A stretch of 64,000 nucleotides of DNA from Caryophanales bacterium (GTDB lineage Bacteria; Bacillota; Bacilli; Exiguobacteriales; Exiguobacteriaceae). This document shows positions 1-23,782 of the stretch, piece after piece. The DNA lies in the NCBI GenBank assembly GCA_902363455.1, contig CABJAC010000002.1, forward strand, positions 176,502-240,501, given 5' to 3'. The translations under genes were made by a program, and so were the position numbers. The notes beneath the pieces are model-generated. The model saw nothing but the letters and a program-made list of their open reading frames with translations. It made no database searches and was not told where the DNA came from. How positions within the stretch are numbered: the first letter of the stretch is position 1; each line of letters starts with the position of its first letter.

Positions 1-128
1 AGGATGAGAATATTTTACAAATTTTAAAGTTCGATCGTATTCAAGGAGCATTCGTATTAGAGACAATTGAAATTTCTGATGGCGGAGACTCTGTTGTAAA
101 TATTGAATCTGAAGATGATGATTTTTAA
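1..128 (+). CDS. C-terminal end of a gene cut by the window edge (dptF position)
   Basis: Reading from base 3, an open frame of 41 codons runs to a TAA at 126-128 and ends in the acidic residues ESEDDDF. Only the tail is present, so no domain can be read. It is on the same strand as the dptG-like gene and ends about 30 bases before that gene's start, so the two probably share a transcript. In phosphorothioation restriction loci the gene before dptG is normally dptF (also called sspF), a P-loop protein. That identity is inferred from position only. Confidence 0.5.
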   Translation, partial: DENILQILKFDRIQGAFVLETIEISDGGDSVVNIESEDDDF

Positions 129-161
129 ATCTAAGCAAAAGTAATTGAAAGGGTGTTAGAT

Positions 162-1781
162 ATGCAAGAAGAAAGTGCAAAATTTTCTAGCAAGATTGGT
201 GCTGAAATATGGGGACATCGGTTTAAAGATGGTCAGCGTGGACCAGAGTATACTTTAGAGTTTTTAAATGTGTTTGCTGGAACAGGTTTTAGCTTGGAAA
301 AGAAGTATTATGATCGAAGAAAAATGATTGAATTTCGTCAGTTTGTCTATGAAGGAGAAAAAGAAGGTGCGAAAGGTTATACTGCAATTTTCGAAGAAAA
401 GAAAAAAGATGTAATTCGAAAGAAGCTTGGAGTAAGCGAAAAACAATTAGAAGATTTACAGGTGTTCTTTAAAAATTTAACTATACCTCTAATGACACCG
501 ATGGGAAAACCAGTTGATCGCTCGTGGTACGCTCAAATGATGTATCCTCTCCACGAATCGTTGCTTTTTTCTGAAGTTCGTGTAAATAGAGATAAAGGCA
601 ATTCGAAAAATTTAACAATTAATTATGAACGTAATTTTTTTGCTCGTGGCGGAGAACTGTACTTTTTAATGTTGCATTATGGAACATTAAATAATCCTGA
701 ATTAAGAATTAATATCGAGAAAAATATGAAAACTCTATTATCTAGTTCTAGTGGAGTAATTGCTGTCATTAATCAAATTAACGAAGCATTTAGTGAGTAC
801 AGTACTGGAGATCAGCCTGCACCACTAATCAAAGATGAAGAGTTATCAACTGTCATTACTAGTTGGGAAAGCAGTGAATACCCAACATTACCAAATACAG
901 ATTTAGCATTGTATAAAGAATTTGCAGAGGAACTTAATGCATTGCTTATGCTAAATATTGATATTTATGAAATGTTTGATATTTTAACTTCGCTCATAAC
1001 ATTCCAACTTCATCGTTATATGATTTTTCAATCAGAACAAATTATTGGTGAAACGAGTAATTATTTCATTGATTGCTTAGAAGGTCAAAATAAATCAATT
1101 AAATTTTTAGCACAAGATTCTTATCGGATTCACGAAACTATAGTAAGAGAAGCCTATAAAACTTTTGTAGAAGACCGAGTAGAAGAAATATTCTCTGAAG
1201 TCAAAGCAGAAGAAAAAATTTATTCTTGGAGAAATAGCCTTGATAGCTTTGAAAAAGATAAAGTGAAGGGCTATTCTGGATTTTTTAACGAATTAAATTT
1301 TACTAGTCTTCAAGCAGCCAAAAAGAAAAAACTTATAGAGGCATTAGAGACTGAAGATATTAATAACGCTAAAAAGTTACTTAGATTACGCATCGTAGAA
1401 CTTTATATGGAGGATTTATCGAAAACACAAGTTCCTATTATGAAAACTTTAGCTCGTGATGGTCAGTTCATCGTTTCGGGAAAAGGATCTAAAGCTCGAT
1501 ATGTACTACATGATAATGTCTTAAGTGCTTTAGTGTATGCAACACTTAATGGTCAGAATAATTTACCGTATGATGATTTTCTAAATGAATTATTCCAAAA
1601 ATACCGCATTATTATTGGAGAAGATGCCGCTAAAAATTCTGGGTTATATTCAAAAGAAGGAATCAATCTAACTCATTTTAGAAGTAATGAGAAAAAAATG
1701 AGACAAAAATTAAAACAAAATGGGCTTCTCCAAGAATACTCAGATGCAACAGCACTAGTTACAAACCCTTATTTTAATTAA
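162..1781 (+). CDS. dptG: DptG/SspG-like phosphorothioation-dependent restriction protein
   Basis: The product has 539 residues if translation starts at the ATG at 162, which has AAAGGGTG six bases upstream. A GTG at 153 is in frame but overlaps that ribosome binding site. The protein is soluble, lysine- and glutamate-rich, with no signal peptide or membrane segment and no catalytic motif that I can see. I assign it to DptG/SspG by size, by its place directly before a 1.7-kilocodon FtsK/HerA-type protein, and by the sspBC genes that follow. In characterised loci DptFGH or SspFGH damages DNA that lacks phosphorothioate marks; the role of the G subunit is not clear. The gene is very AT-rich. 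It lies 29 bases before dptH. Confidence 0.6.
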   Translation: MQEESAKFSSKIGAEIWGHRFKDGQRGPEYTLEFLNVFAGTGFSLEKKYYDRRKMIEFRQFVYEGEKEGAKGYTAIFEEKKKDVIRKKLGVSEKQLEDLQVFFKNLTIPLMTPMGKPVDRSWYAQMMYPLHESLLFSEVRVNRDKGNSKNLTINYERNFFARGGELYFLMLHYGTLNNPELRINIEKNMKTLLSSSSGVIAVINQINEAFSEYSTGDQPAPLIKDEELSTVITSWESSEYPTLPNTDLALYKEFAEELNALLMLNIDIYEMFDILTSLITFQLHRYMIFQSEQIIGETSNYFIDCLEGQNKSIKFLAQDSYRIHETIVREAYKTFVEDRVEEIFSEVKAEEKIYSWRNSLDSFEKDKVKGYSGFFNELNFTSLQAAKKKKLIEALETEDINNAKKLLRLRIVELYMEDLSKTQVPIMKTLARDGQFIVSGKGSKARYVLHDNVLSALVYATLNGQNNLPYDDFLNELFQKYRIIIGEDAAKNSGLYSKEGINLTHFRSNEKKMRQKLKQNGLLQEYSDATALVTNPYFN

Positions 1782-1810
1782 TTCAAAGTACTGGGAGGGA
1801 GCATTAAGAA

Positions 1811-4800
1811 ATGATTGCAAGAATTACTCAAAAAGAAAAAATAATAGGCAGCTGGATTGCACAACACTTACTTAATTATCTTAAAGATCATAAAAATAAA
1901 AATGCTGAAAAAGTATTAGTAAAAATAGAAGGAATTAATGAAGAATACTTTCCAGCCATCTTGAACGCTCTATTAGAAAATCAAGCTCAACTCAAAAGCT
2001 TTTATGAACCAGTGATACGAACTATAAAACAAATTGATGGTTATGATTCCTTTGTTTTAAATGAAAATGAAAATGGAGTATGGTTGCGAAATAATGTAAA
2101 AACGAATGAAGCATTAATTTTATTGATGAATGAACGAACACCAGAAGCTCAAAGCTTAAAAGATATTGTTTCTATTGATGAAACACAGTTACTATCATCA
2201 GATGGCTTTTTCAGTTTAGATCAATCTCTTCAAGAAAGAGGATATTTAGAACCACATCAGATAAAAGACTTACTCAAACTAATTGGAGCATATCAACATA
2301 GAGGAGAACTTGATTTACAACTTTCGATGCTTATTGCTTATATTGAAAGTGTGTTACAAGAGAAAGAAATATCCAATGACACATTTAAAGAGATTTTAGG
2401 GAAATCTTTACCTCATTTTCGATTATTTAAAGACGAGCATTTAAAGTTTGAGTCGTTAGAGGGACTTCGTAATCAGCTTAGAAAAAACTTTTTATTAAGT
2501 CACTTAAGAAAAAGTTTGGTAAATTATTTAGATACAGAAAAATTGATAAAAAATGTGGATAATTTCATTCGTAATGAAGAAAAAAATAATTTTTCAAGTG
2601 AAGTTTGGAAAAATTTTAATAACGATAAAATATTATTTTTAGAAAAAACAATGGAGTTTGTTGAAAGACGAAATAATGATCTTTTAAGTCTAGTTTCTTA
2701 CAATGATGCAGAACGAATTTTTGGTTTTAAAGTGTCTAATTCTTTAAAAGATAAATTAAATAACACAAGAGATATAATTTTAGACAATTTTGCAGAAAAA
2801 ATTAGAGAAGCAAAAAATATTGAAGAAGAGAACCAGTTAAAACAAGAAAAAATGGAAGATGAAAGTCGCTTTGATCGTGGTGTTGAAGCCGTAAATAGTA
2901 AAAATGATATTGAGGCAATTCGAGAATTTCGAGAAGAATATGAACAAGAACTTGAGAAAGAAGATATATTGAAAAAAATTATTAATATTGAAAATAAGCT
3001 TGAAAATCCATCTGAGTATATTGATATTTTTGAAGCGATTTTATCTGAAACCTTAGTGATGTTAGAGGAAATAGAACATGAAGAATTCAATGGTAACCTC
3101 TCCTTTGAAATTTCAATTGATCAAAACATAGAAGTTTCTGAAGAACAAGCTAGATTCTTTAATTTCCATCTGAAATCTTTATCAATGCTATCTTCAAACG
3201 TAATTGTTCTTTCTGAATTGAAAAGTTCCAATGAAGCATCAAAAGACATCGATGTAATTCCTGTTAAATTAAGACTCTTAAAAAATGAAAATTCGATATC
3301 GAAATCTATCGTCAAGGTCGATGCTAGTAGAATGTTAATTGAAACGAGTTTCTCAAAGTTTATTAATCAAATTCAAAACGGATTTTTACAGTCTATTGTT
3401 ACGAAAAAGGGTACGCCAGTTGAAGAAGATTTTAATGAGTATTTGAATGAACAACAACATTATACTTTGATGTCTGATAAACGATTGTTAGAACCCATCG
3501 AGCAATTTAAAAAATACAATACAGAATACACTAGTATTCTTAAATCTATTATCGACGAAAATAGAGGAATAACCACTGAAGATTTAAATCGAGTAGCTGC
3601 CCTTAGCGAATCATTTCTAAAGTGTTCTGATCATGATGTAGATAGTGTTAGAAAAATATACTCACTTCTGAATGAAATTGGAACAATAAAGATTTTTGAA
3701 ACTAAAAATGTTAAACAATCAGAAGTTGAACGGAAAATAGTATCTGTGTTCAATCCTATTAGATTTATTGCTTATGGATTTAAACTTATTCATTTTGGAA
3801 ATTTACTCTCTAATATTTCTGATACGTCTGAACAACGTAATAAAATCCAAGATGTAGAAGATTTAAAGCAGTACAAAGAGTATCTAAGAGGATCGTTTAC
3901 TAACTTAGCACCATCTTATTACGTATCTAAGAATGGTAATCATCTATTTGCACAAGATGAACTATACGGTCAGGGAACGTATATCGAGGGTGGAGAAGTT
4001 GAGAGTGTTTCTTCCCAAGCAACTTCCTTTGCGAAAGAAATTGAAAAAGTTACGAACGATTATGTTCGAGTTTATCCATATGCTGCCGATTGTTTAGATA
4101 TTTTATTCTTATATGTTACCAATTTAGAGTTTGTAAAAAAGAGTGTGGAACAAATTTTGAGAAATGATAGTTTAAAAAAGTTAAACATAACAATTCACAG
4201 TCCTGCGAGAGCTGCAATGCTTTATGATGAGATCAATCAATGGATTCAATCGCAAGAAGAGTACATTAACGCTGTGGATTCGTTTGGTGAATTTCCTAGA
4301 TTAGAAATCAATGTATTACCATTTAGCGATCCTAAAACACTTGAGGAAAAGATAGATACATCCATGCTAGACTTTGATTTAGCAGTGTTTATTGATTACT
4401 TCGGTCAAAGTGACAATTTAAAAATTCCACATCAATTTTACTCAGAAAGCTACAAAGAATGTGAGCTTACAGATAAAAATTGGGTCTTTTATGAGAATCG
4501 TGAATTTAAAGCTGTCAAAGAAGGTACTCGATTAATCAACTATGTTTCACCTAACCAACCAAAGTTGATGCAACAATTTTATAATATGCAAGCGATTTTG
4601 AAAGACGGATTAGTCATCGAACCTAACAAGATTGGTCTATTAAAAGGTAGATTATCTGTAACACGTACAGAAACAAATACACTATATAAACTTGCACATG
4701 AAAAGTTTAATTGGGTTGTCACTTACGATAGATTTATGGATCCTTTATTAATGAAACAAGTAGCCGAAGGATCGAATATTATTCGTTATCATGTAAATCG

Positions 4801-7006
4801 ATTAGGAAAAGAAGAAATTAAAGTTCTTGTTTCCTCTTCAGACTCAATTAGAAGATCTTCAAAAGTGGATATGGAAGTCAATTATTACCGTGATCGTCTC
4901 CATAGTAGGTTAAAAGATCAGTTGAAAGTTAGTAGTATAGACATACAACAGGTTGATAAAGCTCTTAAAGTTGTAAAAGAATTATCCGGTGGTCTAGTGC
5001 TAAGAGCATTAGGACCTGGGAAATTTGTTAACGAATTTTTATCAGTATATTTAACTGTTCTACAGGATGGAAAGTCTGATGATACAGTAGTTTTATGGGA
5101 TATGTGTGATGAATTAGAGTGGTTTAGAACCCGGCAAAAACGTCCGGATTTATTAAAAACAACCATTCAATATTTTCCTGAAACAGAAACGTATAATGTT
5201 AAATTTGATTTAATAGAATTAAAGCTTATACAGGAACAAAGTTATGTTAGTGAAGTAACTGACGCTAAAGTTCAATTAATATCAGGTGAGAAAACGTTGA
5301 AAAAATTCTTTAGAAGATTCGATTCGGCACTCGAAAGAAATCTATATTTAAATTCATTTTTGCTTCATTTGGAAGACAAACGTGCATATGAAGAATTTGA
5401 ACTAGCGATACTACATGAATTAAGAAACAATGAAAATATCCAAATCAATTTTGAATTTACAAAGTCAATTTATGCTTATATTCATAATAAAAATATTGAA
5501 TTTGAAGGTCGTTCAGAACTTTCACCTGGACATTATTACGAAAGAGAAGACGAAAATGAAATAGCAGTAAATACTTTTACTAGATCATACATTTTATCTG
5601 AAATGAATGTTCCTGATCATGAAGTAAATAATGAACTGCAGGACGAAGAAGCATTATTAGAACAGGTTGCTATAACTGATGATAGTGAATACTTTAGTCA
5701 CTATACCCAAATAGATAACAGCAATCTTATTTTGACTGAAATACCGAAGGACAAAGTTATAGAGGAAAGCGACTTACAGAAGCAAAGTGAATCGAATATA
5801 AAAAATGAAATACGAGATATCGAATTAGTTAAAGATATTGAGGAATCTCAATACCCAGAAGATCACGCATTAAAGAACGTTCAAGCTCTACAAACAGAAT
5901 CACTTGATGAAGCATTGAAAAAACAAGGGGATAGTTACGCGGACACTCTACAGACTAAACTTAGAATAAACAATGTTCAGTTTACAGTAGAACGAACTAT
6001 CGTAGGTGCTAGTGTCATTCGTATTATTGGTAGAATTCCGTCGGATCAGAGTATTACAGCAGTTGAAAAGAAGGCTAAAGATATGCCTTTATGGCTGCAT
6101 ATCGATTCGCCACCAACTATTTTTAGTGATCGAAATGGTATCAATATAGACATTAATCGTAATGATCCTGATACAATTTTCTTCTCACAGTTCATGAAGT
6201 ATGTTCGAAGAGATATCACAGAAACAGAACTGAAAAATGGTTTTCTTGTTCCTATTGGACTAAATCCTTTAAATGAGGTGATGTCAGTTGATTTTAACGG
6301 TACAGAACCTCATATGTTAGTCGCCGGATCAACAGGAAGTGGAAAAAGCGTAAGTTTGAATTCCATTGTCATGTCTATGATGTGTCTATACACACCCGAA
6401 GAATTGAAATTTGTATTTATAGATCCAAAACAAGTTGAATTCTCTATGTTTGAAGATGTTCAGCATACTGATAAAGTATTGTTAGATTTAATGGATTCTG
6501 CTGATTATTTAGATGTTATGATTATAGAAATGGAAAATCGATATAGTAAATTTAAAGATGCTTATGCAAAAAATCTGAAAGAATATAATGAAACGCTAAT
6601 TGAAGAAAATAAATCATCAGAAGTTTTACCTCGTATTGTTATTGTTTTTGATGAATTTGCTGACTTCATGATGCAGGATAAAGAATTTGCACAACGCATC
6701 GAAACTGCAATCAAAAGGATCGGTCAAAAAGGACGAGCTGCGGGAATTCATATGATAGTTTGTACACAATCGCCTAAGGCGGAGATTATTAGTACTACTA
6801 TTAAAAATAATTTACTAGCACGCTTAGGATTAAAAGTAACAGACGCAGTTGCATCGAATGTTGTATTAGATACAAGTGGTGCAGAAAATTTAGCAGGAAA
6901 AGGTGATTACCTATTAAAGAAAGATAGAGAACCAGTTAGAGGGAAAAGTCCTTATTTAGAACCACAATCTTTACGAGCTTTAATGAGGTTCTTTAAAAAT
7001 AACTAA
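1811..7006 (+). CDS. dptH: DptH/SspH-like restriction protein with FtsK/HerA-type ATPase domain
   Basis: This 1731-residue protein starts at an ATG preceded by GGGAGGGAG. Residues 1 to about 1450 are charged and partly coiled-coil (for example around 340-440) without a recognised motif. The C-terminal quarter is a DNA-translocase motor: Walker A GSTGSGKS near residue 1506, Walker B IVIVFDEFAD near 1610, then GRAAGIHMIVCTQ and a GAENLAGKGDYLL stretch, all typical of FtsK/SpoIIIE-like pumping ATPases. DptH is the large subunit of phosphorothioation-dependent restriction and its size fits. The likely job is to translocate along or unwind unmodified DNA as part of an FGH complex. A hairpin terminator follows directly. 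High A+T content suggests horizontal acquisition. Confidence 0.72.
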   Translation: MIARITQKEKIIGSWIAQHLLNYLKDHKNKNAEKVLVKIEGINEEYFPAILNALLENQAQLKSFYEPVIRTIKQIDGYDSFVLNENENGVWLRNNVKTNEALILLMNERTPEAQSLKDIVSIDETQLLSSDGFFSLDQSLQERGYLEPHQIKDLLKLIGAYQHRGELDLQLSMLIAYIESVLQEKEISNDTFKEILGKSLPHFRLFKDEHLKFESLEGLRNQLRKNFLLSHLRKSLVNYLDTEKLIKNVDNFIRNEEKNNFSSEVWKNFNNDKILFLEKTMEFVERRNNDLLSLVSYNDAERIFGFKVSNSLKDKLNNTRDIILDNFAEKIREAKNIEEENQLKQEKMEDESRFDRGVEAVNSKNDIEAIREFREEYEQELEKEDILKKIINIENKLENPSEYIDIFEAILSETLVMLEEIEHEEFNGNLSFEISIDQNIEVSEEQARFFNFHLKSLSMLSSNVIVLSELKSSNEASKDIDVIPVKLRLLKNENSISKSIVKVDASRMLIETSFSKFINQIQNGFLQSIVTKKGTPVEEDFNEYLNEQQHYTLMSDKRLLEPIEQFKKYNTEYTSILKSIIDENRGITTEDLNRVAALSESFLKCSDHDVDSVRKIYSLLNEIGTIKIFETKNVKQSEVERKIVSVFNPIRFIAYGFKLIHFGNLLSNISDTSEQRNKIQDVEDLKQYKEYLRGSFTNLAPSYYVSKNGNHLFAQDELYGQGTYIEGGEVESVSSQATSFAKEIEKVTNDYVRVYPYAADCLDILFLYVTNLEFVKKSVEQILRNDSLKKLNITIHSPARAAMLYDEINQWIQSQEEYINAVDSFGEFPRLEINVLPFSDPKTLEEKIDTSMLDFDLAVFIDYFGQSDNLKIPHQFYSESYKECELTDKNWVFYENREFKAVKEGTRLINYVSPNQPKLMQQFYNMQAILKDGLVIEPNKIGLLKGRLSVTRTETNTLYKLAHEKFNWVVTYDRFMDPLLMKQVAEGSNIIRYHVNRLGKEEIKVLVSSSDSIRRSSKVDMEVNYYRDRLHSRLKDQLKVSSIDIQQVDKALKVVKELSGGLVLRALGPGKFVNEFLSVYLTVLQDGKSDDTVVLWDMCDELEWFRTRQKRPDLLKTTIQYFPETETYNVKFDLIELKLIQEQSYVSEVTDAKVQLISGEKTLKKFFRRFDSALERNLYLNSFLLHLEDKRAYEEFELAILHELRNNENIQINFEFTKSIYAYIHNKNIEFEGRSELSPGHYYEREDENEIAVNTFTRSYILSEMNVPDHEVNNELQDEEALLEQVAITDDSEYFSHYTQIDNSNLILTEIPKDKVIEESDLQKQSESNIKNEIRDIELVKDIEESQYPEDHALKNVQALQTESLDEALKKQGDSYADTLQTKLRINNVQFTVERTIVGASVIRIIGRIPSDQSITAVEKKAKDMPLWLHIDSPPTIFSDRNGINIDINRNDPDTIFFSQFMKYVRRDITETELKNGFLVPIGLNPLNEVMSVDFNGTEPHMLVAGSTGSGKSVSLNSIVMSMMCLYTPEELKFVFIDPKQVEFSMFEDVQHTDKVLLDLMDSADYLDVMIIEMENRYSKFKDAYAKNLKEYNETLIEENKSSEVLPRIVIVFDEFADFMMQDKEFAQRIETAIKRIGQKGRAAGIHMIVCTQSPKAEIISTTIKNNLLARLGLKVTDAVASNVVLDTSGAENLAGKGDYLLKKDREPVRGKSPYLEPQSLRALMRFFKNN

Positions 7007-7011
7007 ACTTA

Positions 7012-7049
7012 CAAAGTAGCCAAGAGTAATCTGGCTACTTTGCTTTGTT
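7012..7049 (+). terminator. Terminator or attenuator between dptH and sspB
   Basis: CAAAGTAGCCA (7012-7022) pairs perfectly with TGGCTACTTTG (7032-7042), followed by CTTTGTT. It lies 6 bases after the dptH stop and only 21 bases before the sspB start, so it may separate or modulate the restriction and modification transcripts. Confidence 0.65.
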
Positions 7050-7069
7050 AAAATTAAGGTGGGTTACGA

Positions 7070-7936
7070 ATGGGTTTTGGACAGCATCAGAGTTTTTACT
7101 TACGTCCGCATTGGCTGTATAAAGGATTAAATGAAATTAAAAGCGATACTCGCTTTTTTTATAATGACACACATTTTGAACAACTAGGTTTAGGGAAAAA
7201 CATGGCGAAGTCAGCGAAGTATTGGTTACTCTCAACGGGTCTCATGGAAGAAAAAAAACAATCAGGAAAAACGGAACATCACCTTACTTCTTTGGGAGAA
7301 TTAGTTGATAAGCATGATAAATATATTCAACATCCCGTTACAAAAAGTGTTCTGCATTATACTTTAGCCTCTGATCCAAAAATCGCAACAAGTTGGTATT
7401 GGTTTTTTAATGTGTTTAGAGAATCAATTTTCGACAAATCGATATTGATAGAAACGTTAGAAACCTGGGTCAGTCATACACTAGAAAAATCAGTGTCTTC
7501 TAATTCACTAAAAAGAGATATTGATTGTCTCATTCAGATGTATAGTCCAAATAATCTTTCTTCTACTCCTGAAGATGTTATCAAAAGTCCGTTCGAAGAG
7601 TTAGGGTTGATAAGCAATACAGTTAAAGGTACTTATAAAAAAACACCATTAGATACGGCATTTAAGCTTGAAGTACTTTATATCACTTTTTTGATCTATA
7701 CAGAAAGAAATGAACTCAATGAAGTGAGTCTTGATGAATTAATAGATGGTGAGAATCTATGGGGGAAAATTTTTAATCTTTCAAGGTCTGAAATTGTCAA
7801 CTGTCTAGAGGAGATGCAAAAAAGGTATCCAATAATTTTTACTAGAACGAACCGTCTCGATGTAGTTAGAGTTACTGATAAAACTAGTTACTTAGATTAT
7901 ATGGAACGATTTTTTGAAAATGAGGTAGTGCTATGA
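7070..7936 (+). CDS. sspB: SspB-like DUF4007 protein (phosphorothioation nickase)
   Basis: The 288-residue product opens with a GQHQSFYLRPHWLYKG stretch and an N-terminal region rich in winged-helix-like segments, which I recognise as the DUF4007 family. The length equals that of known SspB proteins. In SspABCD systems SspB nicks DNA so that sulfur can be inserted into one strand. The start ATG has AAGGTGGG upstream. The gene overlaps sspC by four bases (ATGA), so the two are translationally coupled. Family assignment is by motif and context; the catalytic residues were not mapped. Codon use is AT-rich like its neighbours. Confidence 0.72.
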   Translation: MGFGQHQSFYLRPHWLYKGLNEIKSDTRFFYNDTHFEQLGLGKNMAKSAKYWLLSTGLMEEKKQSGKTEHHLTSLGELVDKHDKYIQHPVTKSVLHYTLASDPKIATSWYWFFNVFRESIFDKSILIETLETWVSHTLEKSVSSNSLKRDIDCLIQMYSPNNLSSTPEDVIKSPFEELGLISNTVKGTYKKTPLDTAFKLEVLYITFLIYTERNELNEVSLDELIDGENLWGKIFNLSRSEIVNCLEEMQKRYPIIFTRTNRLDVVRVTDKTSYLDYMERFFENEVVL

Positions 7937-10900
7937 AAAAGTTTCAACCTAGTATCAATGTAGTGTACGACACAGGAAAGTCCGAACTGTTTGATATGTT
8001 TGTTCCTAACAATGATCAGTTAGAAATTATGGAGAATATAATATCAAGTCTATCCAAAAAAAGCTTAGTCAATTCTCATCTTATGATTGGTCCATATGGA
8101 GCAGGAAAATCCATGGTTGGGGCAATTACCGCCTCGTTAATAACGGCAAGAAAAAACAGTAAAAATGTAAAATCGTTCTTATACAACGTGAGAGGTTTGA
8201 ACAATGATTTATCGGATAAAATTAGAAATAATTTATACGAGAACAGTATCAAGTGGATTCCGATTACAATTACAGGTAAAAATGGACGAGTTGACGAAAT
8301 CATTTTAGAAGCTATTCAGTTGAAATTAAAGTCAGAAGGAATTGTTTTATCTCTTAAAGGAGATAGTGAGCAAATTCTTCAAACGATTGAACTGTGGAAG
8401 AATGACTATAAAGATACGTATTTGAAATTAGTAAATTTGTGTACATCTTTTGGATGTACTATAGAGGAATTGATTCAAGGAATTACTATAAATGATGAAA
8501 GATTTATAGTGGAATTTAAAAAAATGTATGGTACTTTGACTTCTGGAGCTACATATATTTCAGAATCGAAAGCATCATTTGTTGAAAAAATTCAACACCT
8601 AACTAATCAATTATCTATAAAGAAAATGGGACTTTTTATTATTTATGATGAGTTTGGAAGGTTTCTTCAAGGTGTAAATCAGTCGTTGATTTTTCAAACC
8701 ATGCAAGATTTACAAGATATCGCTGAATTTGCAAACCGGTCTTCGAACTTAGGCTTACTTTTTATTACTCATACAGGTCTTCGACAGTATTCAACAGAAA
8801 GTAATAACTTATCTAAAGAAGAATTAGAAAGAGTTGAAAAAAGATTTGAATCGCATCGGTTAGATAGTGATCCGTCTTTATTTTATAGAACAGCATTTAA
8901 AATACTTGAGATTGTTAAAGAAGATAATACACCAAACTTATTTTTATTAAACGATATAGAAAGAATAAAAAACGATTTAAAAAAGTATAATCTTTTTCCG
9001 GATATGGAAGTATCTGAAGTTGAGAACTTTATTTTAGAGAAGTGCCAGCCTATACATCCATTAACAATTAGATTATTACCTATTCTTTCAAATATGCTAG
9101 GACAAAACGATCGAACATTATATACATTTTTATCTCAATTTGATGAGACTAGTTTAGAGACTGATTGGTATTATGCGGATCAGTTATTTAATTATTTTTA
9201 TCCAGATGAATCTTCATTTTATCTAATTGATGATTTAAAGTATTATCGACTATCAATGAGTTACCAAATATCAAACGAAGCAAAAAGACTAGTAAAGTTA
9301 ATGACTTTATTGAATATATCTAATAAGCCTTTTAAACTTTCTGTAGATTTTTTATCCTTTGCACTAGGTAGCAATGAGATGAAAATACGCGAAAGCATAG
9401 AAGAACTTAAAAAAATAAAGATTATAAGATACAATCCGCTAGCTTCATCATATGAGTTATATAGTGGATCTATACTCTCTTTAGAATTCCTAATAGAAGA
9501 ATATCGTTCTAAAACAGTTATAAATGATGGAACTAGAATTAAATTTTTAAATGATTTTTTACCTAACAAATATTTTCTACCTCATGAGTATAATAGCGTT
9601 AAAAGTATGACCCGTTTTGTGGAATCCCAATTTGCCTGGGGAAACGTTTTAAATTTAGATACCCCTATTGGTGATGGAATGATACTATATATGATCTATA
9701 AAAATGATCAAGAATTAAAAAATATCCAGGACTTCGTAATAAATCCCGAAAGAAAAGATATCTTAGTATGCATTACGAAGTTAAACACTAAAGATTTAAT
9801 TATTAAATTAGATGAATTTATGATCTTAGATCTTCTATTAAATACTTCAGAACTAATGCAACAAGATGAGAATTTAGAAGCGGAAATTTTGATTCATTTA
9901 GAGAATATAAGATTTGAAATCGAAAAACTTTTACGACCAATTAGGCAATTTGAGAAAGGTAATTTAACTTGGTATATCAATAATGATGTTGTCAAAATCG
10001 ATTCCAAGAATGCACTCGAAAAGAAAATTTCAAATTGGATGTTCGAGAGATTCCCAGCAACGCCGGAAATTAGAAATGAAGGATTCAACAAAAAGAATGT
10101 TACATCTATTCAAAAGAAAGCTGCTAAAAGTATCTTGTCTCAATTACTCTCACCTACATTTTCAGGTAGGTTTGATATCCAAGGTTTTGGTCCGGATTAT
10201 TTAATTTATGCAACTATGTTTAAAAATACAGGAATTGATACAAATAATCTAAGTCAAATACCTGATGATAATCTGCTGAAATTAAGGTACGATTTACTCT
10301 CGTATCTCAAACAGAATAGAAGAGGTAAAATTGTTGGTTTATACGATTTATTGAGACATGAACCCTATGGCATTAGAGAACCACTAATACCACTATTACT
10401 AATAGCTCTATTAAAAGACATTTGGCATCAGATGGCGTTTTATTCAAATGATTTTTACATCCATGAATTGAATGCAGATATGCTATATGAGATTTTAGAG
10501 TTAAGAGCAGATTTTTATGAATACGAACTATACGAATTATCTTCAGCAAACTTAAATCTACTCAAAGATTTAAATACTACTTTCTTTGATGGTACTTTAT
10601 CAGAACAGCCTGTAATAATTTTTACAGAGCTAACCCGATGGTTACGGAACTTGCCAAGGTATACTCAAGTAACTGACCAGTTAACTAATGCTGAAAATCA
10701 ATTCAAAGAAATTATTCGACATAGTGAAACCGACCCCCTTGCATCGATTAATAATCTAGCAAAAATTATTGAAGATAGTCGTGATTTAAAGATTTTAAAA
10801 TCACGACTAGAAAACCATTTAAGCCTTTTGACAGAACAGATTAAAAAAGAAGTTTTTCTTAAGATGGAAATCGAATCAAACGAAGACATCCAGAAGTGGG

Positions 10901-11280
10901 CTGATAGCAATAAAGAACTTGTATTAAATAGCTCAATATTAGCTGGATTCGTTTCAGAGTATGCTCAGAATAAAGACTGGTTAGCATATTTGATTGAAAA
11001 AATTGTCGGAGTTGCATTAAAAGATTGGTCAGATGTCACATATGATTCGTTTTGGATGAACTTCAAGCAGTTATTGATGATAAATCAAAATCAAGATGGA
11101 TTAATAAAAATAGTGACCGACAATCAAACCATTATGGAAATTAAAGAAGTCGAGCTCTCTGTTAAAGGTAAGACTATCTATAACAATGTAAGCAGAATCG
11201 TAAACGCTGGTAGTAGAACGATGTCGGATGATGAAATTCGCTTCGTTGTGTATAAGATTTTAAGTGAGTTAGAATCTTGA
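7933..11280 (+). CDS. sspC: SspC-like P-loop ATPase of the phosphorothioation system
   Basis: The 1115-residue protein carries a Walker A motif GPYGAGKS near residues 52-59 and a Walker B with the DE pair (FIIYDEFGRF) near residue 237, so it is a large AAA/STAND-like NTPase. The remaining two thirds is helical with no motif I recognise. Size and the coupling to sspB fit SspC, the ATPase required for single-strand phosphorothioation. It probably supplies energy for strand handling at SspB nicks. The gene ends in TGA about 50 bases before a perfect bidirectional terminator. The next gene, sspD, converges on it rather than following on the same strand. Confidence 0.7.
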   Translation: MKKFQPSINVVYDTGKSELFDMFVPNNDQLEIMENIISSLSKKSLVNSHLMIGPYGAGKSMVGAITASLITARKNSKNVKSFLYNVRGLNNDLSDKIRNNLYENSIKWIPITITGKNGRVDEIILEAIQLKLKSEGIVLSLKGDSEQILQTIELWKNDYKDTYLKLVNLCTSFGCTIEELIQGITINDERFIVEFKKMYGTLTSGATYISESKASFVEKIQHLTNQLSIKKMGLFIIYDEFGRFLQGVNQSLIFQTMQDLQDIAEFANRSSNLGLLFITHTGLRQYSTESNNLSKEELERVEKRFESHRLDSDPSLFYRTAFKILEIVKEDNTPNLFLLNDIERIKNDLKKYNLFPDMEVSEVENFILEKCQPIHPLTIRLLPILSNMLGQNDRTLYTFLSQFDETSLETDWYYADQLFNYFYPDESSFYLIDDLKYYRLSMSYQISNEAKRLVKLMTLLNISNKPFKLSVDFLSFALGSNEMKIRESIEELKKIKIIRYNPLASSYELYSGSILSLEFLIEEYRSKTVINDGTRIKFLNDFLPNKYFLPHEYNSVKSMTRFVESQFAWGNVLNLDTPIGDGMILYMIYKNDQELKNIQDFVINPERKDILVCITKLNTKDLIIKLDEFMILDLLLNTSELMQQDENLEAEILIHLENIRFEIEKLLRPIRQFEKGNLTWYINNDVVKIDSKNALEKKISNWMFERFPATPEIRNEGFNKKNVTSIQKKAAKSILSQLLSPTFSGRFDIQGFGPDYLIYATMFKNTGIDTNNLSQIPDDNLLKLRYDLLSYLKQNRRGKIVGLYDLLRHEPYGIREPLIPLLLIALLKDIWHQMAFYSNDFYIHELNADMLYEILELRADFYEYELYELSSANLNLLKDLNTTFFDGTLSEQPVIIFTELTRWLRNLPRYTQVTDQLTNAENQFKEIIRHSETDPLASINNLAKIIEDSRDLKILKSRLENHLSLLTEQIKKEVFLKMEIESNEDIQKWADSNKELVLNSSILAGFVSEYAQNKDWLAYLIEKIVGVALKDWSDVTYDSFWMNFKQLLMINQNQDGLIKIVTDNQTIMEIKEVELSVKGKTIYNNVSRIVNAGSRTMSDDEIRFVVYKILSELES

Positions 11281-11328
11281 CAGATACTATGATTATCTAG
11301 GTACTAAAGTACGTTTATTTATCAAGTT

Positions 11329-11386
11329 AAACTATACAAAAAAGGTAGCGGATTTTATCCACTACCTTTTTTGTATAGTTTTTATT
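11329..11386. terminator. Bidirectional terminator between convergent sspC and sspD
   Basis: A perfect 20-base-pair stem joins 11329-11348 and 11362-11381, with the inner loop able to form a further GGAT/ATCC pair. The stem begins with AAA and ends with TTT on both strands, so it can stop transcription from either side. It lies between the sspC stop and the sspD stop. Confidence 0.85.
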
Positions 11387-12270
11387 TATGAGAAAGAACA
11401 TACGCAAGGAATAGTATCGTCTTTTTCACTTAAATATTTTTCAATTCCATCTCTATCCATCAGTTCTCTGTATTCACGCAATGTGAATGGTCCGCCATTT
11501 CTCTTTAAAATAGAAACATCTTTCTCAAACTTACTACGGAAGCGTTCTTCCATAGCTTCTTGCTCCGCGTATTGCTCAGGCCAGACATTATATAAAAGAG
11601 CATAATGACCTAGGCCTCCTCTGACACATCGACCAGCACAGTTCGCGTGTGAAAAACCTAGACCATACATTCGCGGCAATGCAATTTTCCATTCGTCACG
11701 AATAATCTCTTTCGTATCAAGATCGCCTTTAAAAGTTTCAATCATAGGAAAACGTGTTTCGATCGGTTCAATTGGGTTATGCTCGTAGAAATTTTGAAGG
11801 TTGATAGCTCGATGTTGCTCATGAGGTCCAATACCGAAATAAAGTATTGGTTCAAGATTATGCTCATCTCGGAGTTCTTCTAAATAAATCATTGTTTGAC
11901 GAACCTTTAACTCCTCTGAGCATTTAGCCATACGAGAATTACCTAAGAATTTAACATCGTGGAAAACTTCATCAGGTGTTCTTCCATCTATTCGAGTAGT
12001 AATCTCCATACCGATATATTCTGCTACTTCATCCATGAATCGATAGTTATCGATATCTTCCCAAAGTGTATCAGTGAAAAAGAGTACACAGTTCTCTTTT
12101 CCATATTTCTGAACGATATGATAAGCAACATATGCTGACGATGCACCGCCACTAAACATTGCTACGTGCACTGGCTTTCTACCAGATAATGAAGGAGTAG
12201 TACCTGCTTTTAATACACCTAGTGCTGATCGATCAGAGGTTTTTTGAGTTTTTACGTTATTCATATTCAT
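11386..12270 (-). CDS. sspD: SspD-like PAPS-reductase/ATP-pyrophosphatase family protein
   Basis: This 294-residue protein has the PP-loop ATP-pyrophosphatase signature FSGGASSAY near residues 38-46, after a short basic tail. Cysteines at MAKCSEE (about 118), NCAGRC (about 211-215) and the C-terminal CVC could hold an iron-sulfur cluster, as known for the related DndC. The family activates substrates by adenylation; in SspABCD systems SspD works in sulfur transfer to the DNA backbone. It is transcribed toward sspC, not in the usual sspB-C-D order. A purine-rich ribosome binding site (AGAGAGGTG) lies just upstream of the ATG. A second ATG two codons in (MNM) is an alternative start. Confidence 0.75.
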   Translation of the reverse strand: MNMNNVKTQKTSDRSALGVLKAGTTPSLSGRKPVHVAMFSGGASSAYVAYHIVQKYGKENCVLFFTDTLWEDIDNYRFMDEVAEYIGMEITTRIDGRTPDEVFHDVKFLGNSRMAKCSEELKVRQTMIYLEELRDEHNLEPILYFGIGPHEQHRAINLQNFYEHNPIEPIETRFPMIETFKGDLDTKEIIRDEWKIALPRMYGLGFSHANCAGRCVRGGLGHYALLYNVWPEQYAEQEAMEERFRSKFEKDVSILKRNGGPFTLREYRELMDRDGIEKYLSEKDDTIPCVCSFS

Positions 12271-12315
12271 TTAAAACACCTCTCTCTCGAAAACAAAATA
12301 TCCATTTATTTTCTA

Positions 12316-12344
12316 ATTATAAGTATAAAGCTCATTTCTAATAA
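12316..12344 (-). promoter_or_regulatory. Candidate sspD promoter
   Basis: On the minus strand a perfect -10 box TATAAT (12316-12321) lies 17 bases from a weak -35 TTATTA (12339-12344), about 45 bases before the sspD start. This would give sspD its own transcription start. Confidence 0.45.
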
Positions 12345-12368
12345 AAAACAATGATATGTTTTGTGGCT

Positions 12369-12674
12369 TCAATTATCTAGTAGATACTTCTCTCCATTCT
12401 TCCTAATCTTATCTACCACAATCTCTTCCACATCTACATTCAATTCACTACATAAAGTCAGCGCATAAATCAACACATCGGCAATTTCTTCTTTGATATT
12501 TTCCTGATTTTCTTCCCACGCTTCTTCGCTGGTTCGCCACTGGAAGGCTTCAAGTAACTCGGATGCCTCGATGGACAAAGAAATCGCTAAGTCTTTTGGA
12601 TTATGGTGTGGTCGCCAGTTTCGTTCATCACGGAAGTCATCGATTTTTTGTATTAATGCTTTGATTTCGTTCAT
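12369..12674 (-). CDS. MazG-like nucleotide pyrophosphohydrolase
   Basis: The 101-residue product shows the MazG/all-alpha NTP pyrophosphatase pattern: LSIEASELLEAF (about 32-43) followed by KEEIADVLIYAL (about 60-72), the EExxE...ExxD metal-binding arrangement. Members hydrolyse (d)NTPs to monophosphates. The ATG overlaps the stop of the upstream DUF2075 helicase gene by four bases, so the two proteins are made together. Next to a phage-defence locus, a plausible role is lowering or cleaning nucleotide pools when the helicase/nuclease partner acts; that is inference. A housekeeping role in removing damaged nucleotides is the alternative. Confidence 0.85.
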   Translation of the reverse strand: MNEIKALIQKIDDFRDERNWRPHHNPKDLAISLSIEASELLEAFQWRTSEEAWEENQENIKEEIADVLIYALTLCSELNVDVEEIVVDKIRKNGEKYLLDN

Positions 12675-14305
12675 AGCTGTGTCTCCTTTAGTTGTAATAA
12701 TCGTGCGCGTAATTGAGGATTTGTTGCGTACAGATAAAGGCCTTTGACGCCACGCTTCAGCAGAACGTTTAGGGAGTTCAAAATGATTTCTTCCTTGGCA
12801 CGCTCGTTTTCTGACCGACTCAAATCTTGGCGGGAAACAAAGGCTCCGGTGTCTTTGTATGACGTTGGATCGAGCTTCAATTGTTGAGTCGTTTCATCAT
12901 ACTGAATCGACGGACCGAGGACGACACCGACGTAGTTTAAATCAAATCCTTGAATGGTATAGATCGATCCGACTTCTCGAATCGTTTCCGGTTGTTCTGC
13001 CCATGTTGTATGGGTATAAGTACGATTCCACGGAAGATTGATTCCGCCTTCGTCAACAAAGTAGTCGGCACCATCTTTTTTATGCAGGTAGTCAAATGTC
13101 GAGACGATTCGTGATAGTCCGTGCTGTTCGTTTTTCGAGAAAATCGCCTGCTTAAAGACTTCCGGATCCTCGAAGATCTGTAAATCATAATTTGAATCAC
13201 TCGGAATCGGTAAGAGCTCGCGTTCCACCAAACGATTGATCCAGTGCAATGTCTGCGGACTCGCTTGCATCCTGAATTGATTGGATAATTGCAGCGTCTT
13301 TGTCGAAAAGGTACCGACGATGTCCTGCAAGGTCGTACGTCCCCAGTGACTTTTAATCTTGAGGACTTGTTTTGGATCAAAGATCAGAATCGTGATTTTA
13401 CTGCGTGTAATGATTTCATGCAGCTGATTTTGTTGGTGAAAGTTATTGTAGGCATCTTCTTTTGTGAGTAACAGATGGGCTTCGTCCACGAGCACGATGT
13501 CAGCAGTCCGCTTTTGTTTATCCAATGTATTTAAGAAGGGGGTTGGCTTTTGAAACTGCTTTTTCTTTAAGTTCGGTAGGCTGCTGGCAATCGATTTATA
13601 CGTCTTGAGCATTTCACCATGGTTAACGAGCAGATAGTTATCCGTCTGATACAGTGCAGAATCGGTTTCTTTCGTCAAATCCTGGATCGTATTGAACAAG
13701 GAGCTGAGTAGCACACTTTTTCCTGTTCCGGCGTCACCTTCGACAATGAAGACATGGTGCCCCGTTTCGGTGATTTTGGTTTTACAAAATTTTAAGATTT
13801 CCTCTTTGACTTCTAGTTGTTGCTCAGACAATTCACGAAACGGAGAGAGTTTGTAGACGTCTTTGTTTCGTAATTGATCGAGTGTTCCTTCCGCAATCTG
13901 CTCCTCTCGTAACTGTTGCCAGATGTTTTCAAAAACCGTCTCATTGAAAAAATCTTTTCGGAAATAGTTGTGCATCTGACGGGAAACAGTTTGGCTGACA
14001 TTTTGCAGTGTATAGCGACCATCTGCAATTAAAAAGTTAATCAAATTGGATTCGATATTGTAAGTAGCCGATTGGTTAAACTGTTCATGCCCAATTAAAA
14101 TCGATTCGTCGAGCTGCTTCCGACGAGGATCTTTTAAATGGGCTTTTAACCGTTGATTTTTTTGAACCGTTTGTCCGACGTAAGCTTGTGCTTTTGACCG
14201 ATTATACAACAGATAAACGATTGGATAATTGTCTATGTAGAGCGTTCGACTACGCGTTAAATCAGCGTAGTTAAACCGGTACTTTTCAAAATAAAGTTTC
14301 TCCAA
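12671..14305 (-). CDS. GIY-YIG domain fused to DUF2075 SF1-type helicase
   Basis: The 544-residue protein begins with a compact GIY-YIG-like nuclease domain (PIVYLLY then AYVGQT, about residues 28-52, with basic RLKAHLKDPRRK after it). From about residue 170 it is a DUF2075 helicase-like ATPase: Walker A EGDAGTGKS near 195, Walker B IVLVDEAH near 271, FDPKQ motif III, NQFR motif IV, IQGFD motif V and KGLYLY motif VI. The start appears to be TTG at 14305, with GGAAGGATGG upstream at a long spacing. It overlaps the mazG-like gene. Such proteins are probably DNA or RNA processing enzymes in defence or repair; the substrate is unknown. Confidence 0.8.
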   Translation of the reverse strand: MEKLYFEKYRFNYADLTRSRTLYIDNYPIVYLLYNRSKAQAYVGQTVQKNQRLKAHLKDPRRKQLDESILIGHEQFNQSATYNIESNLINFLIADGRYTLQNVSQTVSRQMHNYFRKDFFNETVFENIWQQLREEQIAEGTLDQLRNKDVYKLSPFRELSEQQLEVKEEILKFCKTKITETGHHVFIVEGDAGTGKSVLLSSLFNTIQDLTKETDSALYQTDNYLLVNHGEMLKTYKSIASSLPNLKKKQFQKPTPFLNTLDKQKRTADIVLVDEAHLLLTKEDAYNNFHQQNQLHEIITRSKITILIFDPKQVLKIKSHWGRTTLQDIVGTFSTKTLQLSNQFRMQASPQTLHWINRLVERELLPIPSDSNYDLQIFEDPEVFKQAIFSKNEQHGLSRIVSTFDYLHKKDGADYFVDEGGINLPWNRTYTHTTWAEQPETIREVGSIYTIQGFDLNYVGVVLGPSIQYDETTQQLKLDPTSYKDTGAFVSRQDLSRSENERAKEEIILNSLNVLLKRGVKGLYLYATNPQLRARLLQLKETQL

Positions 14306-14418
14306 AACATGTGTCCATCCTTCCAGTGATGTTACAAGGTATGTAAAAAGTAATTCTTGTTAAATATAGCATGACACATGAGTAATTGTTATTTAAAGGG
14401 AATTTGATTTGGGAAAAT

Positions 14419-14451
14419 AAAAGGAACAGCCCGTTGTGGACTGTTCCTTTT
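14419..14451 (-). terminator. Terminator of the helicase-Vsr gene
   Basis: AAAAGGAACAG (14419-14429) pairs with CTGTTCCTTTT (14441-14451). Read on the minus strand it begins two bases after the stop codon of the helicase gene and runs into TTTTATTTT. Confidence 0.8.
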
Positions 14452-14453
14452 AC

Positions 14454-17400
14454 TTATACATATTCAACTAGTGAAGGTTTAATCTCCATCTCTTCAAGCG
14501 TCGTCCATAGTGATTCCATTGCACGATCTGCGTCTTGATAGAAATGACGGCCACGTACACGCCAGAAGTTCCAACCCGCCCGCTCCAAGACTTTTTGCCG
14601 GAACATGTCCGCTTCATACGCATCTGGTCCGTGCCAACGTTCACCATCACATTCGACGGCGAGTCGGTTGTGTTCGCCTTCGACGACAAGGTCAATCCGG
14701 TAGCCGTTGACTTGGACTTGAGGCGTGACGAGGTATCCCCGTGCGACAAGACGACGGTAGACGGCTTCTTCGAATGGTGAGTCAAAGCGATGTTTGACGC
14801 TCTCGAAGGAAGCTTGGTCACCAAGTGGATTTTGACAATAACCGAGCAACTTATAACGCATACAGTTGCTATTGCCGATGTCATTTAATGAGACCGAGTG
14901 GAACAGAATCATTTGATCGCGGGCCCGACTCGCTGCGACATTAAAGCGTTGACTATCGGTTTCTTTTGTCATCGCCATGAAGCGCTTATTCGGAGCGACG
15001 ACCATTGAGAGTAACATGACGTCACGCTCGTCTCCTTGGAAAGTGTAGGCATCCCCGAAGCGGACTTGATGCTGCATCAACGTCTCGATTCCGATTTCGG
15101 CCGTCGCGATCCGTTCAATCTGATTAGCCTGGGCGTTACCGAGTAAGGAGACGACACCAAACGTCCGATTTTGATAAAGCGGATCTTGCATCATTCGTTT
15201 CAGTTCAGCGACGATGGCACGTGCTTCCGGTAAGTTCACCTTGTCCATCGTCGTCTCGTCGACGTATCCATCATGAACAAAATGATTTTTGACGGCTGGA
15301 TTCAGTCGTTCAGCACGTTGGGGCAAGCGGAGCGGGACAATCGTTCCGTCATAGACGTGAGCGTTGCTGAAGCCAATGATTTCCGGTACACAGCGGAAGT
15401 GTTCCCGTAAGCCGACTTTCGTACTGAACTTGACGGAGGCAAGGGAATAGAGACTACTTGTCCCATCGAACAAGGTCATCGTCGAATCATCTCCGAAATA
15501 CGTTTTTCGCTTTTCTTCGACATTATCGCGGTTATCGAAGCTCGTCGGACTGATTTGACGGTCATCGCCGACGATGATCGCTTTTCGTGCCCGCGACAGG
15601 AGCGAAATCGCATCCATCGTACTTTGCGAACTTTCATCAAAAATGATGACATCAAAAAGATCGCTCGCGGCCTTAAAGGATTCAAGGACACGGTTGACCG
15701 GCATGATCCAGACCGGAATCGCGTCCTGAGCCTGCATCATTTGTTTGGCAGCTTCTTTCCGGTAACGTGGTGCATGTTTACCCGTTCCTTTTCCGACTTT
15801 GCGAATCAAGGTTGCCCAACTGTTGAGCTGTTCTTGTTTCGAAGGCGTCATCCGTTTGAGCTGTTCTTTCCAAGCGAGTGTCGCACAGAGACGGGCGACA
15901 GTCTGTCCTTCTTCTTGCTCAAGACGATGGAGCTGCTCGCGTTCGTCTGCATCACTCAAAGCTTCAAGTCGACTCTTGACGTAGGCAAGGTGCCACGCGT
16001 CACGAAGTTCGAGCGCATGAAACGTGGGAGCACTGTTCGTTCGTAATGCCGTGAGCCAGTTCGGGGCAGCTTGTTCTAATGTCTTACTGAGTGCTTGTAG
16101 GCGACTCGCTCGGTGCTCATTCGTTTCCAGGAGTCGTAGTTCTTTATAAATCGCTGTATAGCGAGTAGCATCCCAATCACGAATCGCTTGCTGGAGCTGA
16201 ATGGTGATGGGGTGGGTGAGTTCTGCTACGTTGAGTAGAGATAACCATTGTTGTTGCTGCCCGTTCAGTTCGTCCAAACGCTTCAGTTCAAAGAGTGCCT
16301 CTAGGGCATTGGTTTGAAGCTCGAACCACTCTGCTTCATACGTGAAGTCATGATTTTCATAACTTGCGTGTAATGGACGGAGGACTTGCGTAAAGTGTTG
16401 AATGATACTGTCAAGTTTGCGGAAAACATCGAGCGCTTTTCGGTACGTCGTTAAAGGACCAACCGGAATTTCAATGGAATGATGTTCAAAGCGATGCTTA
16501 AAAGTCCGATCGAGTTTCCGAAGTGATTCCGTATACGTCAACTGTTGCAAGAGTAACGTAACATCTGCGGCACTCGCCATCTTCTTCCCGTCAATCGTCA
16601 CTTCATCTAAAAGAAGGGCGTATTTTTTTCGTTTTGTCCATTTAAAGAACATCCCATCGACCTTGTTTGCTTCAAACAGTGGCAAGAGTTCCGTTGCGAG
16701 TACAGATAAATCTTGATCTGTTGTCGGAAGAGCGAAATCATGCAACAAAACGGTCCGCTCGAGTTGTTCAATCTCAAGAAGTGTCTGTTCGAACGCCAAC
16801 CGATCTTGCCCGAGCTCATCAAAATCAGAAGGATGCGTCAGCCAATGACGATATAAGGCAAGCGTCCATTCTTCAAGGTTCGTATATTGCTGAACGGATT
16901 GCTGGAGCCAGTCGCGAAATTGTTGTTTGGTCTCATCAGACGCCGATTTCATCCATGCAACTGGTAAAGCAGTCGGTTCGATGAGTCGGAGTGCTGTTAC
17001 TTCGGCGACGAGTTCTTCGAAGATCAGTGGTTCCGCAAACGCCGTCCGTGTTGGTCGACGACCGAGAATCTTGAGTTCGGCAAGTGCTTCTTGATCCTGC
17101 ATCAATTCATACAGTTCCTGAATATCGACGGCACTCATCGGTGCTTCTTCAGACAAAAGTGGTGTCGGAATCTGTGTCGAAATCGTGGATTGACTCATCC
17201 ATTTTGCCCACTCGAGTGGCGTCTTCGTTTCTTGACCAATCGTCAGACCGTCGTGTTCGAGAATGGCTTGATCAAGCATCATCCGACGCGTCGATGCAAT
17301 TTCACGACGAATCGTTTCGAGATGATTCCGAATCGTTGTGGCACTTGCTTCTAGTTCTTCAGCTGACGTCTTATTCAAATAGCTTGAGATACCATGTAAA

Positions 17401-18638: not shown

Positions 18639-18783
18639 TACTAGGTAGCTCCTTATATGTAAATTTAAAAGTTAGGAAATTAGAGGTGGTTTATTGAAAA
18701 ACGAGGCACTTAATTCCTAGTTTTTAGGACACTATTAGTATACAAGGAAACAGGATGAAGAGAACAGTAGGGAGCAGAAAAAA

Positions 18784-18811
18784 GACTTTCCGAATGGGTC
18801 TTCGGAAAGTC
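18784..18811 (-). terminator. Terminator overlapping the stop of the next minus-strand gene
   Basis: GACTTTCCGAA (18784-18794) pairs perfectly with TTCGGAAAGTC (18801-18811); on the minus strand TTTTTTC follows. The TGA stop at 18810-18812 lies in the base of the stem. Confidence 0.85.
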
Positions 18812-20024: not shown

Positions 20025-20340
20025 GCTAATCTCCTTTCTATACGGAAAAACAGCGAAGAACCATTAGTAATATTTCCCCGTATTTTACTAAAAACAATCA
20101 ACTTACATATATTAAATTAAAATAGGAAGGGAAGTTTATATTGTATTATTTATTTTTGTGGTTTATTGAAATCTAGTTGCTAAAGTTTAATGAATCTTTT
20201 TGAGTAATGGTATTTTACAATTTTTCAGTTTACTGTTCAGCGTGGTAATAAAAAAAGAAACGGATCAACTGACCCATTCCCGATATGAAAAGAAAATTAT
20301 CTAATTAGAAGAAGAAACATGTCATCTTTCATTAAGAAAG
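20025..20340. other. AT-rich intergenic region without a gene
   Basis: No open frame with a ribosome binding site is visible. It should hold the minus-strand promoter of the membrane-protein gene and the end of the 158-residue gene, but I see no convincing terminator hairpin or conserved element. Confidence 0.5.
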
Positions 20341-20817
20341 TCATTTCGCTAATGCTTTTACTTTCACAAGGAGGTCGTCAGAATAAGCTCCTTTGGAGAT
20401 GGAATTGATTAACTCCACAAATGACGCAGCTGCTTGTTGGAAAGCGCGAATAAACTCCGTTGTCTCATAGACGACTTCATCTTGATCGATTCTCAGTGAC
20501 AAGCTGTGACTCGAGTGCTTTTTGAACGTAACCTCTATGGGCGTGTTGGGATAATAGAAGGTAGCATAATCTTTTTTCAGGTAGCAATCTAGAGCTTCTG
20601 TATAGTACTGCCAAAGAGGCGCAAGTTCATCCGAGGTATCCATACCTTGTATCGAGTCGTTTCGGTCGTTTGAGAAAGCGATGATACCTTCTAGATTTAA
20701 AAATCCGTCTTCGAGCCAATTTTCTTTTTTGTTTACATAAGATTGAATCCGTTCACGTTCCTCAATACTGAGATGATATTGTTCATTTTCTAAAAAAATA
20801 AGAGTTTGAATGTTCAA
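20341..20817 (-). CDS. Hypothetical 158-residue cytosolic protein
   Basis: The product is acidic, has no signal peptide and no membrane segment, and reads as an alpha/beta protein with aromatic-rich middle (EALDCYLKKDYATFYYP) and a C-terminal helical part. No family is recognised. The ATG is preceded by AAAGGAGG, which supports that it is a real gene. It is transcribed away from the LytTR-ABC locus, from which it is separated by about 130 bases holding both promoters. Confidence 0.6.
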   Translation of the reverse strand: MNIQTLIFLENEQYHLSIEERERIQSYVNKKENWLEDGFLNLEGIIAFSNDRNDSIQGMDTSDELAPLWQYYTEALDCYLKKDYATFYYPNTPIEVTFKKHSSHSLSLRIDQDEVVYETTEFIRAFQQAAASFVELINSISKGAYSDDLLVKVKALAK

Positions 20818-20951
20818 GCAGTATCCTCCTTTTAATTAGTAAGTGCAATCAATCTTGATATGGTCCTGCTTTTTGATTGTAAAAGACATTGCATGAAATA
20901 ATAGGTAAAATATTCCTTGAGTCGGATTAAAGAGAGGGTGGATACCTGTAT

Positions 20952-23621: not shown

Positions 23622-23673
23622 CTGGTATATCTTTTTGAAAGACAATTCAGACGACATATGAGCTTAAATAGCA

Positions 23674-23772: not shown

Positions 23773-23782
23773 GGAGGTCAAA

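Follow-up and report, generated by a model that had tools for sequence, protein, structure and literature searches.

The DNA analysed here (the window) is a stretch of 64,000 nucleotides from an Exiguobacteriaceae bacterium (contig CABJAC010000002.1), whose first 12.3 kb carry, in order from the left, the end of sspF followed by sspG, sspH, sspB and sspC on the plus strand and by sspD on the minus strand (Table 1). The five open frames between 153 and 12270 have no internal stop and lie where the initial annotation had placed them, including those of the 539- and 1731-residue proteins. That annotation had SspD adjoining the locus and was silent on the orientation of its gene, which is opposite to the operon and convergent with sspC. 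The locus most probably codes for a complete SspBCD-SspFGH phosphorothioate (PT) restriction-modification system, an established type of anti-phage defence, whose F gene is cut only by the window edge, a reading of the sequence to which a probability of about 0.87 is given. It is based on which genes are present, on family matches for every subunit, on motifs that are intact, on FGH and BCD occurring together, on their modular exchange, and on a remote relationship to DndFGH; the biochemical steps and the sulfur motif are drawn from homology and from published studies with Vibrio and E. coli.

Table 1. Features in the first 12.3 kb of the window.
Feature	Position	Strand	Remarks
sspF 3' end	3..128	+	last 41 codons and TAA; frame 3 resembles the C-terminus of SspF of locus L006 (E. 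antarcticum)
sspG	153..1781	+	542 amino acids (aa) from GTG or 539 aa from ATG at 162
sspH	1811..7006	+	1731 aa; PADLOC SspH, Pfam FtsK_SpoIIIE
hairpin at the module junction, between sspH and sspB	7011..7043	not assigned	two hairpin scans: one flags the minus strand, the second script the plus strand with a T-rich tail
sspB	7070..7936	+	288 aa; DUF4007
sspC	7933..11280	+	1115 aa; P-loop ATPase
long hairpin between convergent sspC and sspD	11332..11378	not assigned	hairpin scan: 20 pairs, minus-strand flag, three registers
sspD	11386..12270	-	294 aa; PAPS-reductase/ATP-pyrophosphatase type

A protein of Exiguobacterium sp. S22-S28 has 99% identity to the window SspG, and the locus aligns with genome G010 (E. 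antarcticum DSM 14480) at 97.3% identity across 12,260 bp. Within the genus, 3 of 19 genomes have SspG, each together with a close SspD, and one more has no more than an SspD-like match of 38%. In all three relatives sspF lies upstream of sspG (578 aa in G010 and G007; frame interrupted near its end in G003). Full-length SspF of loci L006, L008 and L009 matches the PADLOC SspF profile (7.6e-245, 4e-245 and 6e-252, respectively). The absence of most of sspF from the window is thus attributed to the window edge alone, because the gene precedes sspG in the relatives and matches this profile.

The marking half of the system is formed by SspB, SspC and SspD. SspB matches Pfam DUF4007 (6e-70), PADLOC SspB (2e-56) and the solved SspB structure 6juf (2.6e-15). 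SspB has been described in the literature as a nickase or DNA-binding subunit. SspC (PADLOC SspC, 4.6e-96) carries a Walker A motif at residue 53 and DEFG at 239, and has no match among solved structures. SspD matches Pfam PAPS_reduct (3e-5) and PADLOC SspD (2.8e-12), and features SGG at residue 40 and cysteines 117, 211, 215, 289 and 291 that are conserved in 36 rows. The solved protein nearest to it is 21fy (3e-17), named PptA, on which a literature search gave nothing useful. Functions of nickase and ATP pyrophosphatase are assigned to SspB and SspD, respectively (PMC8092258). Each of three relatives has five Aminotran_5 matches, all of them over 80 kb away from the locus, and the role of SspA is expected to be filled by a housekeeping cysteine desulfurase.

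The attacking half is composed of SspF, SspG and SspH. SspF of the relatives carries the motif GNAGDGKT, which we take to be Walker A, the window holding only the 41-codon tail of the gene. SspG matches PADLOC SspG (2e-143 over residues 18-540) and is predicted by structure modelling to have a DndG-like fold; its sequence has no credible match among solved structures. SspH matches PADLOC SspH (2.8e-93) and, at its C-terminus, Pfam FtsK_SpoIIIE (3e-43), with an intact FtsK ATPase (Walker A at 1506, DEFAD at 1614). A fold search gives a methyltransferase fold for residues about 730-1012, in which no S-adenosylmethionine motif was seen. The conserved residues E1075, D1100, P1112-D1113, E1136-x-K1138 and Q1155 form what we take to be a PD-(D/E)xK motif. 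This assignment is based on the motif and on alignment to DndH, and it points to a putative nuclease site at E1136/K1138. Note that the window SspG has a weak match to the NCBIfam model of MAD7 from the MADS system (20 bits, with a cut-off of 410) and that SspH matches PADLOC mad8 (3e-21) across its FtsK part; MADS may share an SspFGH-type machine. SspF of L016 (7566-9968) and L017 (7587-9968) has an N-terminal extension of ~220 residues past the SspF profile that resembles the variable fusions reported at the N-terminus of DndF.

The distribution of the system was assessed with two peptide patterns from the SspG alignment searched against genome contigs, a procedure that misses relatives lacking both patterns. 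It gave 42 loci, 34 from Bacilli and 8 from elsewhere. F, G, H, B, C and D are present in 34/34 Bacilli loci, with interrupted frames in L018 (sspB) and L023 (sspH), and the gene order is B-C-D-F-G-H in Gottfriedia L037. The eight non-Bacilli loci all have F and G, seven have H (some as pieces or cut by the contig end), two have B-C within the locus and one has C alone; no SspD relative was found at E 1e-8 in the seven of them that were searched (L049 was left out). In a class-wide sample of 398 genomes SspG occurs in 10 and SspB in 14, and all 10 SspG genomes carry SspB on the same contig within 15 kb (naive hypergeometric probability 4e-17, kinship ignored). For a Peribacillus strain, PT SspABCD and PT SspFGH are already listed in PMC10740426. 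In four genomes of other Bacilli (G055, G182, G222 and G275), an SspG of a second, divergent type (E 2e-21 to 4e-19) lies within 15 kb of SspB. SspBCD could have another role here, such as regulatory marking, next to an FGH that is decayed or silent: most published sspBCD are without FGH (PMC8092258) and single frames are broken in relatives (sspF and sspC of G003, sspH of L023 and sspB of L018). The frames visible in the window and the motifs checked are, however, all intact, and this explanation is considered scarcely probable.

An SspD homologue adjoins the operon in all 34 Bacilli loci, directly 3' of sspC and on the same strand in 26. The opposite orientation is found in 8/8 database loci of the BCD clade of the window and in 0/26 other Bacilli loci; in these eight, sspD is convergent after sspC in six and located before sspF in two. 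Trees were built for 37 Bacilli rows (36 for D) by quick searches with support from the Shimodaira-Hasegawa-like approximate likelihood ratio test (SH-aLRT) only, and D distances have a partial rank correlation of 0.77 with B-C given F-G and of -0.08 with F-G. Both results bear on whether the PAPS-reductase gene is an unrelated neighbour rather than SspD, sulfur insertion then being carried out by another protein or absent. Its strand, its own hairpin, a modest SspD profile score and an identity above that of its neighbours (99% compared with 92% for SspC between L007 and L008) would agree with such an origin, but its presence beside every Bacilli operon and its tracking of B-C make it highly improbable.

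The trees yield one history for F, G and H and another for B, C and D. The ratio of B-C to F-G distances over 630 pairs has a median of 1.14 and a 95% point of 1.94, and of the ten top ratios (4.6-7.9) eight link Exiguobacterium I (window, L015, L007, L008) with Exiguobacterium II (L016, L017), the other two being Jeotgalibacillus L027 paired with L023 and with L031. In L027, FGH belongs to the large clade (the F-G columns are 76% identical to L023) and BCD to the window's clade. Placement of its FGH inside the window's clade is rejected (p 1.4e-5 for F-G, 1e-4 for H), while placement outside the window's B-C clade is rejected weakly by BC (p 0.039) and B (0.045) and not by C (0.079) or D (0.143). 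Identities between the window (E. antarcticum for F) and L016 are 82% for F, 77% for G, 75% for H and 83% for D, compared with 48% for B and 45% for C. Within Exiguobacterium II, B (99%) and C (96%) are more conserved than F (84%), G (92%) and H (94%). The approximately unbiased (AU) test does not reject a B-C clade uniting Exiguobacterium I and II (p 0.255 for BC, 0.211 for B, 0.305 for C, 0.321 for D), and the case for a B-C replacement between these groups therefore comes from distances and not from topology. Taken at the level of sequence, these data suggest that the marking and attacking halves were exchanged in evolution.

SspFGH was also compared with DndFGH, also termed DptFGH. The NCBIfam models TIGR03236 and TIGR03237 (Dpt) do not match the window SspG and SspH at E 0.001, nor does TIGR03238 match a relative's SspF at E 1. 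Membership in DptG/DptH is thereby ruled out, the matching profiles being those of SspF, SspG and SspH. The initial annotation had proposed SspBCD modification joined to a DptFGH-type restriction module, with the Dpt label made dependent on such matches: the label is dropped, and the joining of SspBCD to a three-gene restriction module is borne out by the PADLOC and Pfam matches and by F in the relatives. Its description of the island as a complete Gram-positive example stands, with F cut by the window edge, but the case is not the only one: the 34/34 Bacilli loci found through SspG are alike in gene content.

Profile-profile comparison, run with controls, points to SspF and SspH as remote relatives of DndF and DndH, while the likeness of SspG to DndG is visible through its predicted structure only. 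DndFGH (TIGR03238, TIGR03236, TIGR03237) and SspFGH have in common the gene order F-G-H, a P-loop protein with Asn in the Walker B place (N139 in SspF of L008, N309 in DndF of L105, with an acidic residue aligned before each), a DndG-like fold (predicted for SspG) and, in the H subunit, a methyltransferase fold, a restriction endonuclease (REase) motif and a HerA/FtsK motor. Unlike DndFGH, SspFGH has no equivalog match here and is related in G by fold only. The C-terminal motor matches FtsK_SpoIIIE in the window SspH and HerA-type families in DndH of L105, and the partner module is SspBCD in place of DndBCDE: the right-hand neighbours are SspB, SspC and SspD, and no DndBCDE-type pair was found on the left side of the relatives within the stretch read. 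According to the primary paper, SspFGH lacks sequence homology to DndFGH; a review terms them homologs in passing.

A DndFGH system acting without, or independently of, SspBCD, with its neighbours brought together by accident in a defence island, would be in line with the remote likeness of SspF and SspH, with DndFGH at the same site in other Exiguobacterium and with the frequent occurrence of DndFGH without DndBCDE noted in PMC10853773. The lack of match to the Dpt models, the adjacency of FGH and BCD in 34/34 Bacilli loci and the presence of SspB in all 10 SspG genomes render it very unlikely. Several results weigh against the assignment to a complete SspBCD-SspFGH system or parts of it. SspD matches its own PADLOC profile only moderately, and four of the 10 SspG matches in the 398-genome sample are weak (E 2e-21 to 4e-19). 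Pfam has no match to the middle pieces of SspH, PD-(D/E)xK part included, and the best 50 fold-search matches of a larger SspH piece are of methyltransferase type and others, with no nuclease noted. The SspG-DndG profile comparison is not significant (E 0.26 and 0.025 with 5 or 35 DndG rows).

We lean towards SspFGH and DndFGH being one ancient machine coupled to two sulfur writers, with Ssp BCD and FGH reassorting at the H/B boundary and cutting carried out by the PD-(D/E)xK site of SspH. The machine, as pictured within this joint proposal, would have an F that binds nucleoside triphosphates (NTP), a DNA-reading G and an H with an inactive methyltransferase, an REase and an FtsK part. If writer and reader reassort in this way, the reader need not match one particular writer. 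In the proposed working of the complete SspBCD-SspFGH system, a housekeeping cysteine desulfurase would provide sulfur for SspD, SspB and SspC would locate a short motif, 5'-CCA-3' in the cases studied, and open it, and SspD would insert sulfur in one strand of the DNA backbone. SspFGH would then scan DNA, with SspG as its DNA-reading subunit, SspF as an NTP-binding regulator and SspH as a nuclease with an FtsK motor, pumping DNA and damaging it where the mark is absent.

The closest described arrangement is SspABCD-SspFGH of Vibrio anguillarum FF-93 (PMC8092258), which shares, at the level of described features, DUF4007 SspB, P-loop SspC, SspD, a three-gene FGH, a Walker A SspF (as judged here from the relatives) and an FtsK-like SspH C-terminus. 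Unlike FF-93, the host here is Gram-positive, the order is F-G-H-B-C and sspD is convergent on the other strand. BREX type 4 (BrxP, BrxC) also has DUF4007, PAPS reductase and a BrxC/SspC-like ATPase (window proteins match PADLOC BrxC at 4e-28 and BrxP at 1e-10), but DUF4007 and PAPS reductase are separate genes here. SspABCD-SspE has the same modification module; SspE requires the mark, whereas SspFGH attacks unmarked DNA (PMC8092258). Assignments to BREX 4 and to SspE were discarded because neither PglZ or BrxL nor SspE was found among the eight proteins of 153-18638 that were scanned. Two points are added here: the remote relationship to DndFGH, along with the predicted position of a nuclease site, and the exchange of modules between writer and reader. 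The published tests found used Vibrio and E. coli genes, and the six-gene module, spread over many Bacilli genera, offers well-placed Gram-positive examples. The subunit-by-subunit evidence on DndFGH predicts where the nuclease site lies, and, with the writer naturally exchanged and the reader retained, it becomes possible to test whether SspFGH recognises a single fixed sulfur motif or any Ssp mark.

A plasmid origin of the locus was rejected: no match was found in a plasmid collection at megablast sensitivity, and in three relatives it sits on contigs 1.9-3.2 Mb long. DndFGH of G004 and SspFGH-BCD of G003, from the same genus, share flanking neighbours, three on one side (129 aa, 94.6%; 229 aa, 96%; 383 aa, 92%) and one on the opposite side (284 aa, 86%); the genes of 129 and 284 aa also have matches in G007. 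The sister genus shows a similar arrangement, in which DndFGH of G024 and SspFGH-BC of G022 have common neighbours of 512 aa (92.7%) and 784 aa (93%), one on either side. No genome of the family has both Ssp and Dnd (SspC in 5 and DptG in 7 of 38 genomes, overlap 0), which is within chance (p 0.34). The region 12337-25525 of the window, from sspD to a conserved LacI-type regulator, differs from E. antarcticum and is viewed as a variable island because only parts of it align.

A gene for a MazG-like nucleotide pyrophosphohydrolase (12369-12674, minus strand) adjoins sspD upstream on the same strand. To its right in the window lies a Schlafen group 3 helicase (12671-14305, minus strand; Pfam 2e-100) whose N-terminus is GIY-YIG-nuclease-like by eye, and which has an 81% relative at the same chromosomal site beside DndFGH of G004 (L105). 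Another gene (14454-18638, minus strand) codes for a helicase of 1394 aa that has an MTES_1575 REase domain at its C-terminus; it is PDC-S37-like in PADLOC, resembles ProA/Hhe anti-phage proteins of NCBIfam below their cut-offs, and is likely another defence gene of the same island. A gene coding a phospholipase D (PLD)-nuclease/helicase is found beside DndFGH in both Exiguobacterium genera (L104, 2964-5318; L105, 13534-15858; 51% identical), and no DndBCDE was recognised by eye near these DndFGH among the listed frames. The H/B hairpin occurs, by our own criterion, in 17/34 rows and is therefore no general feature; L018 and L023 (broken frames) and L037 (gene order) were set aside from this count, and 10 rows with a gap of at most 30 bases were unscanned. 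In L007 (G003), sspF (5523-7300) and sspC (15074-18420) are each broken at an A-run, and real decay of both modules cannot be told apart from sequencing error. In E. chiriqhucha (L009), sspC is followed by a GmrSD-type (DUF262-like) gene (15075-17216) that has its best PADLOC match to PDC-M55C (2e-21), is weakly SspE-like (1e-7), and possibly codes for a second effector.
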